Origin: Gammaproteobacteria bacterium
Lineage (GTDB): Bacteria; Pseudomonadota; Gammaproteobacteria; Steroidobacterales; Steroidobacteraceae
Assembly: GCA_024642505.1 (NCBI GenBank)
Contig: JAHEAZ010000011.1
Span: 1 to 54,374 of the forward strand
DNA: 54,374 nucleotides
Reading direction: 5' to 3'
How positions within the stretch are numbered: the stretch's first letter is position 1; each line of letters begins with the position of its first letter. A model generated the notes under the pieces. That model saw only the letters and a list, made by a program, of their open reading frames with translations, had not been told where the DNA came from and searched no databases. Position numbers and translations under genes: made by a program. Of this stretch, positions 41,352 to 48,225 are shown in pieces.

Positions 41352-41656
41352 GGCAGCGGCCTTAAATCTTCAAGAAAACAAAGACATGCCCAGAAGGGCA
41401 AAGGGCGGCAAGAGTAAGGCCCGGATCGCGGCAAGTCAACCGGAAGCGCTGGCCCGCACGGCTCCGATAGTAGGCCTGGATCCCGCCCCGCTCACCCGTA
41501 CCCCGCGGAGCTTCCCGTCAGGCTCCCGACAGCCGGCCCGGGCCGCCCTCTGCCGGCCCCGCCCTGTGGATAACTCTGGCGTGGACCCTTCACCAGCGAT
41601 AGACTTCGCGGCCTTTCCAGTCATTCGTCTCAAGGACGGTCCAGGGGGACTGGCTC
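41352..41656. promoter_or_regulatory. rpmH-dnaA divergent intergenic region
   Basis: A 305-bp spacer between divergent rpmH and dnaA. It must hold both promoters, but no strong -35/-10 pair could be assigned. One perfect DnaA box is present (see separate entry). No gene or RNA is seen. Confidence 0.6.
41565..41573 (-). promoter_or_regulatory. DnaA box upstream of dnaA
   Basis: TGTGGATAA is the exact complement of the consensus TTATCCACA. It lies 83 bp before the dnaA GTG, a position suited to DnaA autoregulation. Confidence 0.8.
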
Positions 41657-42994
41657 GTGCAGGGCTCGCTTTGGCATCGCTGTTTGCGCCAACTCGAAGG
41701 CGAGGTTCCCGAACAGCAGTTCAATACCTGGGTCCGGCCGCTGCAGGCTATCGATTCCGAGGGCCTGCTGCGGCTCCTGGCGCCCAACCGCTTCGTCGTG
41801 GACTGGGTCCAGCAGAATCTCTACTCGCGGATCGTGGAGCTCGCGGCCCGGGAGTGCGCTTCCGGCAGCCACCAGGTGATTATCGAAGTCGGTTCGCGGC
41901 CCAGCGCTGTCGAGGATTCCGCTACCGCCGCAGCCGGGCCGGCTGTCCGCCGGCCCGCCATCCCGCCCCTGGTCGGCGGTCGGGTCAATCCGGAGTTCAG
42001 TTTCGAGAATTTCGTCGAGGGCAAGAGTAACCAGCTGGCGCGGGCTGCGGCCGTGCAGGTCGCGGAAAACCCTGGGAGCGCGTACAACCCGCTGTTCATC
42101 TACGGCGGTGTCGGCCTGGGCAAGACGCATCTGATGCACGCGGTGGGCAACGCGCTCCGACAGCGCAATCCCGAAGCACGTGTCGCCTATGTCCACAGCG
42201 AGCGTTTCGTCAGTGAGATGGTCCGCGCCCTGCAGCACAACACTATCGCTGAATTCAAGCAGACCTACCGTACGCTTGACGCGCTGCTGATTGACGACAT
42301 CCAGTTTTTCGCTGGCAAGGATCGTTCGCAGGAGGAGTTCTTCCACACCTTCAATACGCTGCTGGAGGGTCAGCAGCAGGTTATCCTGACCTGCGACCGT
42401 TACCCAAAGGAGGTGGCGGGCCTGGAGGAGCGGCTGAAGTCGCGTTTCGGGTGGGGTCTTACCGTCGCCATCGAGCCGCCCGAGCTGGAGACCTGCGTCG
42501 CCATCCTGATGTCCAAGGCCCAGGCCAGCGCGGTCGCGCTGCCCGAGGAAGTGGCATTCTTCATCGCCAAGCGGATCCGCTCGAACGTCCGGGAGCTCGA
42601 GGGCTCGCTGCGGCGCGTGATTGCGAATTCCCGGTTCACAGGCCGCCCGATCACGCTGGATTTCGCTAAGGAGGCTTTGCGCGACCTGCTCGCCCTGCAG
42701 GAGCGGCTGGTCACCATCGAGAACATCCAGAAGACCGTGGCTGAGTATTTCAAGATTCGCGTTGCGGACCTCCTATCGAAACGGCGCAATCGTTCCATTG
42801 CCCGGCCGCGGCAGGTCGCAATGGCCCTGGCGCGGGAGCTGACAAATCACAGCCTCCCGGAGATTGGCGACGCGTTTGGCGGCAGGGATCACACCACCGT
42901 CATGCATGCCTGCGAGCGGGTCCGGGGGTTGCGCGAGACCGAGCGACGGACGGGCGAGGATTACCTCAACCTGTTGAGAATCCTGACTGGTTGA
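41657..42994 (+). CDS. dnaA: Chromosomal replication initiator protein DnaA
   Basis: A 445-residue initiator starting at GTG 41657, which gives the usual opening [21 protein letters not shown] (domain I, shown only in part). Domain III AAA+ has Walker [10 protein letters not shown] (about 149) and Walker [10 protein letters not shown] (about 213). Domain IV ends with the DNA-binding signature [15 protein letters not shown] (about 407). Domain II is short and Pro/Ala-rich. It binds DnaA boxes and opens oriC. It heads the dnaA-dnaN-recF-gyrB series. Confidence 0.98.
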
Positions 42995-43225: not shown

Positions 43226-44320
43226 ATGAAGTTCACTGCCGAGCGTGAAGATATCCTGGCCGCATTGCAGGCCGCCATCGGCGTGGTTGAACGCCGCCAG
43301 ACCATGCCTATCCTGGCCAACGTGCTGTTGTCAGCGAAGGAGAACCGCCTCGCGGTGACCGCGACGGACCTGGAGGTCGAGTTGGTAGCTCAGGCCGCCA
43401 TCAAGTCGTCCGCCGACGGTGCGATCACCGTGCCGGGACGCAAGCTGCTGGATATCTGCAGGTCGTTGCCGGACAAGGCCAAGATCACCGTGGCCGTTGA
43501 AGGTGAGCGGATCCTGCTGCGCGCGGCCAAGAGCCGCTTCACGCTGACGACCCTCCCGGCGGCGGAGTTCCCGGTCATTGACGAGATCAACACCCAACAA
43601 ACCATCGACATTCCGCAGGCTGACATCAAGCGCTTGCTGGACAAGACCCATTTCTCGATGGCCCAACAGGACGTGCGCTACTATCTAAATGGAATGTTGC
43701 TGGAAACGGACGGGAAAATGCTGCGAACGGTTGCGACTGACGGCCATCGTCTGGCATTGTGCGAGATGGCACTGGCGACCAAAGGAAAGGGCCAACAGAT
43801 CATCGTCCCGCGCAAGGGTGTCCTGGAGCTGCAGCGGCTGTTGGGAAATGAAGGCAGCGTCACGCTAACCGTCGGAACAAACCACATTCGTGCGCAGATC
43901 GGCGACATTCGCTTCACTTCGAAGCTAATTGACGGCAGATTCCCGGAGTACGGCCGGGTGATCCCGGCCAACCCACCGCGCGCCGTTCTGGCAGACCGGG
44001 AAGTTCTTCGTGGTGCGCTGCAGCGGACGGCGATTCTATCCAATGAGAAATATCGGGGTATCCGCCTGGCGCTGAAGGCCAAGAGCATGACCATCCAGGC
44101 CCACAACCCGGAGCAGGAAGAAGCGGAGGAAGAGATAGAGGTCAAGTACGACAGCGACGAATTGGAGGTGGGCTTCAACGTCAATTACTTGCTGGATGCG
44201 ATCGCTGCGGTGGAAGGTTCAGAGGTGGAGATAGGATTGACGGACGGCAACTCGAGCTGCCTGATCCATGCGCCAGGAAGTAGCAGCAGCCGGTATGTCG
44301 TGATGCCGATGCGCCTGTAA
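43226..44320 (+). CDS. dnaN: DNA polymerase III beta subunit (sliding clamp)
   Basis: A 364-residue clamp with the normal three-domain length. It opens MKFTAEREDILAALQ, and contains RRQTMPILANVLL, LLDKTHFSMAQQDVRYYLNGMLL (shown in part) and ends with YVVMPMRL, the conserved C-terminal hydrophobic cleft residues. GGGAG precedes the ATG. It tethers polymerase III and other DNA enzymes. Confidence 0.98.
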   Translation: MKFTAEREDILAALQAAIGVVERRQTMPILANVLLSAKENRLAVTATDLEVELVAQAAIKSSADGAITVPGRKLLDICRSLPDKAKITVAVEGERILLRAAKSRFTLTTLPAAEFPVIDEINTQQTIDIPQADIKRLLDKTHFSMAQQDVRYYLNGMLLETDGKMLRTVATDGHRLALCEMALATKGKGQQIIVPRKGVLELQRLLGNEGSVTLTVGTNHIRAQIGDIRFTSKLIDGRFPEYGRVIPANPPRAVLADREVLRGALQRTAILSNEKYRGIRLALKAKSMTIQAHNPEQEEAEEEIEVKYDSDELEVGFNVNYLLDAIAAVEGSEVEIGLTDGNSSCLIHAPGSSSSRYVVMPMRL

Positions 44321-44330
44321 CGCGGACGAA

Positions 44331-45401
44331 ATGCCACTGACCTGGATCCAGGTCGAGCGGTTTCGCTGCCTGGAAAAGGTGGAGCTGGAACTCGACCCGC
44401 ATTTCAATCTATTTGTAGGAGCCAACGCCTCGGGCAAAACCAGCTTGCTTGAGGCGTTGTTCTTTCTGGGTCGTGGCCGGTCGTTTCGATCCCGTCGCCT
44501 CGAGACCCTCATTCAGCAAGGAGCAAAAGACTTCCTGGTCGTTGGCAAGACGGAGGCGGCGGGCGCTGTCACCACGCTGGGCGTTCGCGGCAGCCGTTTG
44601 GGTACGGAGGTGCGGATTGCCGGCCGGCCGGCGCAGTCGGCTGCGGAGCTGGCTGAACATTTCCCGCCGCAAGTAATCGATCCGGAGGTTCACAAGCTCC
44701 TTGAAGAGGGTCCCGGCCGGAGGCGGCGCTTTTTGGACTGGGGCGTGTTCCACGTGGAACGGGCATTCCTGCCGACCTGGCAGCGCTATCACAAGGCGCT
44801 GCGTCAGCGGAACGCGGCGCTTAAACAGGAGCTTTCAGACGAGGCGGTTGGGGTCTGGGACGGCGAATTGGCTGAGGCCGGCGAGGCATTGTCGGCCCAG
44901 AGGCTGGCGTATCTCGAGCGCCTCTCCGAGCCGCTTGGAGCAATGGGTAGGCGCCTTCTGGGTATGGACGTAGCGCTGGTCTATCACCGCGGTTGGCCGG
45001 ATGAACGCGGCCTTCGGGAATCGCTTGCCCGAGATGTCGAGCGGGATCGGCGTTATCGAGCAACCCAGCACGGCCCACATCGCGCTGACGCCGTAGTTCG
45101 AGCCGGAGGCCAAGCGGCCAAGGATCGGGTGTCACGCGGGCAACAGAAGCTGCTGGCGGCCGGCCTGACGCTGGCACAGTTACAGGTCCAGGAAATGGAG
45201 CGGCCCGGCCGGTCGGCGCTGCTGCTGGATGACCCAGCGGCAGAACTGGATGCCACCAGTCTTGGGAGGCTGCTGGAGTGCGTTAGGGAGCTGCCAGTGC
45301 AGCTTCTGGTGACTTCCCTGCGGGCAGAGGTCCCCGGGCTGCCGGCCGCGGGCAGGCTGTTCCACGTGGAACGGGGGCGCATTGCGGTCGCGCCGTCCTA
45401 G
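44331..45401 (+). CDS. recF: DNA replication/repair protein RecF
   Basis: A 356-residue SMC-like ATPase. Walker A is GANASGKTSLLEAL (about 31), the signature is SRGQQKLLAAGL (about 265) and Walker B ALLLDDPAAELD (about 296). It loads RecA at gaps with RecO and RecR. Ten bp follow dnaN. Unusually, its coding sequence contains two parS-type palindromes, each encoding Phe-His-Val-Glu-Arg (near codons 142 and 346). Confidence 0.97.
   Translation: MPLTWIQVERFRCLEKVELELDPHFNLFVGANASGKTSLLEALFFLGRGRSFRSRRLETLIQQGAKDFLVVGKTEAAGAVTTLGVRGSRLGTEVRIAGRPAQSAAELAEHFPPQVIDPEVHKLLEEGPGRRRRFLDWGVFHVERAFLPTWQRYHKALRQRNAALKQELSDEAVGVWDGELAEAGEALSAQRLAYLERLSEPLGAMGRRLLGMDVALVYHRGWPDERGLRESLARDVERDRRYRATQHGPHRADAVVRAGGQAAKDRVSRGQQKLLAAGLTLAQLQVQEMERPGRSALLLDDPAAELDATSLGRLLECVRELPVQLLVTSLRAEVPGLPAAGRLFHVERGRIAVAPS
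44746..44761. other. parS-type site inside recF (site 1)
   Basis: TGTTCCACGTGGAACG: a near-perfect 16-bp palindrome matching the ParB target TGTTnCACGTGnAACA except at the last base. The same TGTTCCACGTGGAAC core occurs in Pseudomonas parS sites. Confidence 0.8.
45358..45373. other. parS-type site inside recF (site 2)
   Basis: A second exact copy of TGTTCCACGTGGAACG, 612 bp after site 1 and about 30 bp before the recF stop. Confidence 0.8.
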
Positions 45402-45495
45402 GCCTGGCTAGATGTGCCGGGAACTCTTGTCCACAGAGGCGGCGCATCGGTGTTGGGGCGCCGGAGGGGAGTGCGTCCTGCCGGACCCGCAGCAG

Positions 45496-45511
45496 TGTTT
45501 CACGTGAAACA
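45496..45511. other. Perfect parS centromere site
   Basis: TGTTTCACGTGAAACA, the exact universal ParB-binding palindrome; symmetry extends to 20 bp (45494-45513). ParB spreading from here positions the origin through ParA and SMC. Confidence 0.92.
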
Positions 45512-45607: not shown

Positions 45608-45628
45608 TTATCCACAGCTCTATCCACA
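45608..45628 (+). promoter_or_regulatory. Tandem DnaA boxes upstream of gyrB
   Basis: A perfect TTATCCACA (45608-45616) and a one-mismatch CTATCCACA (45620-45628), same orientation, 3 bp apart. Confidence 0.75.

Positions 45629-45804: not shown

Positions 45805-48225
<2,421 letters not shown>

Follow-up and report, generated by a model that had tools for sequence, protein, structure and literature searches.

Candidate parS centromere sites inside recF of a Steroidobacteraceae gammaproteobacterium and their place between dnaN and gyrB across the class

Bacteria use short DNA signals termed parS to separate their new chromosomes, and the 16-bp palindromic chromosomal form was first defined in B. 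subtilis. We know of no parS that overlaps recF in Bacillus. In a member of the Gammaproteobacteria (Steroidobacteraceae; assembly GCA_024642505.1, contig JAHEAZ010000011.1, whose 54,374 nucleotides are called the window here) three parS-like sites span 766 bp, two of them in recF and the third between recF and gyrB. This raises the questions of whether they form a centromere, whether selection on DNA or on protein maintains them, and whether recF or its chromosomal position is what matters. The features concerned are the following.

41657..42994, + strand: dnaA (TIGR00362, 1.1e-177), origin-region marker
43226..44320, + strand: dnaN (TIGR00663, 1.7e-107), with parS directly downstream in many genomes lacking recF
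44331..45401, + strand: recF (TIGR00611, 1.5e-96, over cut-off), host of sites A and B
44746..44761, no strand assigned: parS-like site A, recF codons (V)FHVER, perfect 14-bp palindrome
45358..45373, no strand assigned: parS-like site B, recF C-terminal codons (L)FHVER, inner 14 bp palindromic
45496..45511, no strand assigned: parS-like site C, between recF and gyrB (about 95 nt past the recF stop), perfect 16-bp palindrome
45808..48225, + strand: gyrB (NF011501, 1298.9 bits), downstream boundary of the parS address

The two copies of TGTTCCACGTGGAACG inside recF (44746-44761 and 45358-45373) are identical and 612 bp apart, and both are read in the same phase as xTG-TTC-CAC-GTG-GAA-CGG, that is (V/L)FHVER, which bears out the Phe-His-Val-Glu-Arg assigned to each by the initial annotation. 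Each matches the 16-bp consensus except at the final base, and the inner 14 bp, GTTCCACGTGGAAC, are a perfect palindrome. The spacer copy, TGTTTCACGTGAAACA at 45496-45511, is the same perfect palindrome as the parS of B. subtilis, although the gene setting differs. Against the chromosomal parS palindromic consensus TGTTNCACGTGNAACA the mismatches number 1 (A), 1 (B), and 0 (C). Matches with up to three mismatches occur six times in the window as compared with 0.99 expected, a number reached by none of 100 shuffles. In the whole draft genome (3,109,212 bp, 156 contigs) these three are the only matches with at most one mismatch, and both their coordinates and this uniqueness uphold the first reading of three parS sites in about 770 bp, two inside recF. 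The search with two mismatches which that reading proposed adds four matches with exactly two (one at window position 2352), a level regarded as background because a reversed control pattern yields five at two mismatches or fewer.

The order of genes in the window is dnaA, dnaN, recF, gyrB. GC skew changes sign, negative to positive, at about 41-43 kb, and exact DnaA boxes, TTATCCACA, lie at 41565 (-), 42995 (-), and 45608 (+); for these reasons the sites are considered origin-proximal, and all three cluster within their 766 bp beside dnaA and dnaN, the boxes and the skew turn. The DnaA box at 45608 is exact and lies in the recF–gyrB spacer, about 100 bp past site C, while the other two flank dnaA.

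A cognate partner is encoded in the same genome. The initial annotation had found no parA or parB in the window, and both were located outside it, on contig C136, where the genome's single parB_part match adjoins parA and the neighboring genes are read as rsmG and atp. The ParB is full-length, with ParB_N, HTH_ParB, and ParB_C domains (N-terminal, helix-turn-helix and dimerization), so that the lack of a ParB, which would have spoken against the sites, does not apply. Its closest solved relative is itself a ParB (6t1f, 3.2e-52). Aligned with Caulobacter ParB (positions mapped with a 10-residue offset), it carries Arg and Gly at R173 and G201, which a passage of one paper describes as absolutely conserved in extant ParB (PMC7383237). 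The three sites very probably constitute, as judged from sequence, the centromere of this bacterium's chromosome, a parS cluster lying about 4 kb or less from the DnaA boxes and the GC-skew turn. Following the established ParABS mechanism, from which loading and a function in segregation are inferred for this organism, ParB made from the parAB genes on the other contig would load at sites A, B, and C and then spread over the origin region, and ParA would move ParB so that the new origins separate; ParB probably would load SMC as well.

The parS-like sites belong to a known kind, and a location in recF has a precedent in P. aeruginosa, where parS1 and parS2 lie within recF according to passages of two papers (PMC5521831, PMC3909081); the comparison with Pseudomonas made at the outset was exact in this respect. 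Other passages report that the intragenic parS of P. aeruginosa were mutated with no amino-acid change (PMC4368675) and that the half-site GTTCCAC is a motif of its ParB (PMC7022226). Both organisms have two parS in recF near oriC, the P. aeruginosa pair being known here from these papers, and the two in the recF of the window occupy codons shared with most genomes of the class. The pair is spaced 627-633 bp in the named Pseudomonas, Stutzerimonas, and Azotobacter recF loci (630-633 bp in five Pseudomonas). P. aeruginosa differs in having, as the same literature describes, the intergenic parS3 and parS4 and six diverged sites, whereas the genome of the window has one extra site, in the spacer, and no others within one mismatch; moreover, binding and function have been tested for the P. 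aeruginosa sites, while those of the window are known from sequence.

Among the genome of the window and 29 relatives, sites with at most one mismatch occur in 26 of 30, and 18 have a pair 606-612 bp apart. No such site was found in four, namely G014 (same family, 96% complete) and G001, G004, and G005 (same genus, 74-87% complete). The recF profile had no match in the loci of relatives G006, G010, and G002, and contig ends cut the recF of some relatives. G010, of the same family as the window, contains six parS-like sites with at most one mismatch in 422 bp near a contig start (C97:186-607, L026) and, on a different contig, a pair spaced by 606 bp.

Across the class, the exact 14-mer GTTYCACGTGRAAC occurs in 314 of 370 genomes, most commonly twice per genome, while its reversed control occurs zero times or once. 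The class recF set comprises 134 of the 297 genomes with a recF match over the cut-off, mostly the higher-scoring ones (G180, G207, G209, G210, G211, and G284 are examples with a match that lie outside it), and includes 129 genomes with ParB, three without and two uncertain. In the 129 ParB-bearing genomes, 218 of the 278 genome-wide copies of GTTYCACGTGRAAC are inside recF, 90 genomes have all of their copies there, and the gene holds two exact 14-mers in 97, one in 24 and none in eight. Of the 56 class genomes with no GTTYCACGTGRAAC, 55 are itemized and the remaining one is outside the 129, whose eight members lacking a recF site were checked singly. Sites A and B occupy homologous codons in most rows of an alignment of 153 recF loci. 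When 20 genomes of family f37 are added to the 129 (n = 149 with ParB), the exact 14-mer is present at the homologous codons of site A in 111 of 149 recF genes and of site B in 122 of 149 (four not alignable there), counts that are slightly low because MAFFT misplaced a few rows. At least one exact site is found in the recF of 136 of 149 genomes with ParB versus 0 of 35 without, ParB status being assigned by HMM alone and the absences representing about two independent losses. Drafts with no clear ParB (G403, G406, G417, G143, G371, and G414) and relatives G001-G029 except G008 and G024 are excluded from these counts.

Named genomes, taken as recF plus 1.5 kb on each side and grouped by taxon label rather than by ParB status, show a similar distribution. 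Outside Enterobacterales and Pasteurellales, 51 of 62 recF loci have at least one exact site and 46 of 62 have two or more; the 11 without a site include all six Vibrio/Vibrionales, one of two Photobacterium, Shewanella, Thiomicrospira, and Francisella. No exact site occurs in the 18 recF loci of Enterobacterales and Pasteurellales, and passages of two papers describe Enterobacteriaceae and Pasteurellaceae as having no par genes (PMC3909081, PMC4368675).

The 35 genomes without ParB serve as a natural control and consist of 30 of family f163, four of a single f37 genus and E. coli K-12, that is, about two loss clades. The 31 f163 genomes, 30 of whose recF genes were examined, contain no full chromosomal-type ParB match (six weak matches to the ParB model, two barely over the cut-off), and the E. 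coli control genome also gave some match to the model TIGR00180. The f37 members are small single-contig genomes of a genus in which congeners retain ParB, and their recF genes carry near-miss remnants of the sites. The exact site is absent from all 35 recF genes, and the codon tests described below show no excess in them; Val is missing from site A in 35 of 35 and Glu is retained in five. In this set two columns of site B, the preceding codon and His, remain high in the ranking for synonymous bias (18th and 24th of 346), which probably reflects the close kinship of these genomes. A pair of broken recF genes from f37, one from a ParB-bearing genome with two exact sites 613 bp apart (G413, L311) and one from a ParB-less genome with none (G412, L312), was set aside, since gyrB is broken as well in the two assemblies and indel errors are therefore suspected.

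The codons used at the sites in ParB-bearing genomes depart strongly from the usage of their own genes. His is CAC in 116 of 118 cases at site A and 113 of 114 at site B (49.9 and 48.9 expected from each gene's own codon usage), Val is GTG in 110 of 113 and 110 of 115 (34.7 and 35.6 expected likewise) and Glu is GAA in 98 of 102 and 93 of 98 (54.5 and 51.9), with P values of about 1e-22 to 1e-56 that take genomes as independent and are descriptive. When the 357 codon columns of recF are ranked for synonymous bias, places 1, 2, 3, 5, 6, and 7 go to His, Val, and the codon in front of the site, at A and B alike, and places 12 and 15 to Glu; Phe is unremarkable, and both of its codons fit the motif. 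Various residues precede the site (Val, Leu, Met, Thr, Arg, Ala, and others), mostly with a codon that ends in G (120 of 139, 49.5 expected, and 73 of 89, 28.4 expected, with Met and Trp omitted), while the residue after it is mostly His, Pro, Gln, or Arg, with codons that begin with C (137 of 149 and 134 of 148). The comparison shows selection at the DNA level on sites A and B, which thereby set the choice of codons and impose the peptide FHV(E/K) on two places of RecF that are not homologous to each other. The proposal of the initial annotation that such selection shapes the protein is sustained by synonymous codons that are almost frozen where ParB is present and by the lack of an exact site where it is not, and the synonymous drift in relatives that would have counted against it is very small in ParB-bearing genomes.

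Two genomes have the same altered core in both of their recF sites, CACGTA in G177 (L156) and CACATG in G051 (L101), where both peptides have Met in place of Val. A common variant is what would be expected if one DNA-binding protein reads both sites, possibly through co-evolution of ParB and parS.

A further element was noticed at the end of recF. Of 210 aligned recF genes, 52 (e.g., L036, L038, L065) have TGNTATAAT, a consensus extended -10 element, at their stop codon; none of the 35 ParB-less genes has it, and a plain TATAAT is present in two of them. The spacing was measured in 52 genomes, and in 49 of these TATAAT begins exactly 21 nt past the closest parS 14-mer on its upstream side. This arrangement, which the recF end of the window does not show, suggests a gyrB promoter with its -35 region abutting parS. 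Columns 509/510 of the recF alignment, which are also synonymously biased, were assigned to this TATAAT-like element at the stop codon and not to parS.

Genomes without a recF match help to separate the gene from its position. No match to recF better than 1e-30 was obtained in 72 genomes of the class, of which 68 were retained (G045, G178, G272, and G379, all without the exact 14-mer, being omitted). The exact 14-mer is present in 38 of the 68 and absent in 30; dnaN is matched in 53 and missing in 15, so some of the absences are draft gaps. The places of the sites are listed for 32 of the 38 genomes (six unlisted), and in 24 of these 32, from 11 families, parS lies within 1 kb downstream of dnaN, the nearest copy at 5-200 nt (median 23); four of the other eight have parS elsewhere on the contig of dnaN and four on a different contig. 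The order dnaN-parS-gyrB is seen in the nine recF-less genomes fetched, with dnaA preceding dnaN in eight and the contig of G202 ending inside dnaN. The 863-bp dnaN-gyrB gap of G202 contains no RecF-like frame and has parS near both ends, 722 bp apart. In G129, which has no recF match, twelve exact parS 14-mers follow one another with a strict 43-bp period (C48:1287-1773).

Sites also move where recF is retained. In the 129 ParB-bearing genomes, the 1.5-kb flanks of recF add 22 sites downstream, from the end of the gene to about 1.2 kb on, and one upstream, and among the 32 genomes whose recF has one exact site or none, 12 have a site in these flanks; new exact copies inside recF occur in G398, G400, G401, and G351. 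In four loci of an f37 genus (g269; L170, L181, L183, L187) site A is gone and another exact 14-mer is found 717-735 nt into the trimmed recF frame, apparently as a result of parS turnover within the same gene. The address appears selected because parS sits directly after dnaN in many recF-less genomes, and it is shown in part that selection acts on the chromosomal address (the dnaN-gyrB interval), with recF as host, rather than on recF itself.

Several other explanations have to be weighed against a centromere under selection at the level of DNA. Chance matches to a palindromic motif have in their favor that the motif is short and nothing else; they are contradicted by the whole-genome counts, the shuffles and the conservation, which leave them a negligible probability. 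It is highly improbable that the parS-like DNA simply follows from a need of RecF for Phe-His-Val-Glu at both places. Across 16 aligned RecF sequences, E. coli and one other ParB-less member among them, site A always has Phe and His and site B always has Phe and Val, so part of the motif is tolerated or wanted by RecF; this need of the protein would nevertheless not account for the near-frozen synonymous codons, for flanking bases that are mostly fixed though the flanking residues vary, for the loss of Val (and frequently Glu) from site A in genomes without ParB, or for sites between dnaN and gyrB even when recF is missing. An improbable alternative is that the recF sites serve mainly in ParB-dependent control of dnaA-dnaN-recF-gyrB transcription and not as a centromere. 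Excess ParB lowers gyrB and the following genes in P. aeruginosa, as a passage of one study reports (PMC5521831), and the fixed 21-nt spacing to TATAAT would fit such a function; but the same source describes, in parB-null/parS-null P. aeruginosa, no rise near the intragenic parS1 and parS2 and a rise only near parS3/4, a single parS of the oriC cluster is described elsewhere as necessary and sufficient for segregation (PMC4368675), and the recF end of the window, as noted, shows no TATAAT arrangement.

A more serious, if still somewhat doubtful, competitor accepts the centromere and disputes the address: parS would have entered an ancestral recF by chance and been locked in, as its loss would cost segregation, the address being unimportant. 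The homologous codon pair shared by so many genomes does resemble inheritance from a single ancestor, and some ParB-bearing genomes have parS away from dnaN. Against it, the sites move, as new copies within recF or up to 1.2 kb after it, yet mostly remain in the interval, and parS is commonly found in the same interval of recF-less genomes. Additionally, passages of a study in Caulobacter, an alphaproteobacterium, report that inserted parS show a hot spot at recF-gyrB, by a mechanism that its authors call unknown (PMC5815017); the same neighborhood is thus favored for parS, with the difference that those parS were introduced by transposon and that the native parS cluster forms a hot spot of its own. 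For the selected address, the chances seem about even that a single one, the stretch after dnaN, has persisted through most of gammaproteobacterial history, with recF overprinted twice and the element outliving its host gene. As parS can be shifted away from dnaN-gyrB, by a few hundred bases or as much as tens of kilobases, the reason for the fixed clustering is directly testable.

Conservation of parS in recF across the class is not stated in the titles, abstract beginnings and passages of the papers listed, and term counts show 'recF' to be absent from the main text of two reviews (PMC7022226, PMC7333895); the survey of Livny 2007 was outside this scope, and a prior description is possible. 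What is added to the P. aeruginosa case is that the recF location would be an address selected at the DNA level, and shaping RecF, in most of the ParB-bearing Gammaproteobacteria examined. The sites at this address are gone where ParB is gone, and the address is commonly still occupied where recF is gone. The locus provides an example of overlapping selection on a wide scale, a centromere written through a protein-coding gene, with natural controls, and cautions that residue conservation in RecF (Val-Glu at site A, His-Val-Glu at site B) can stem from a constraint on DNA and not from protein function. If this reading is true, a DNA-repair protein carries peptides dictated by a centromere, and selection on the address (on distance or order relative to oriC, dnaN, or gyrB) would explain the recF-gyrB insertion hot spot of Caulobacter.
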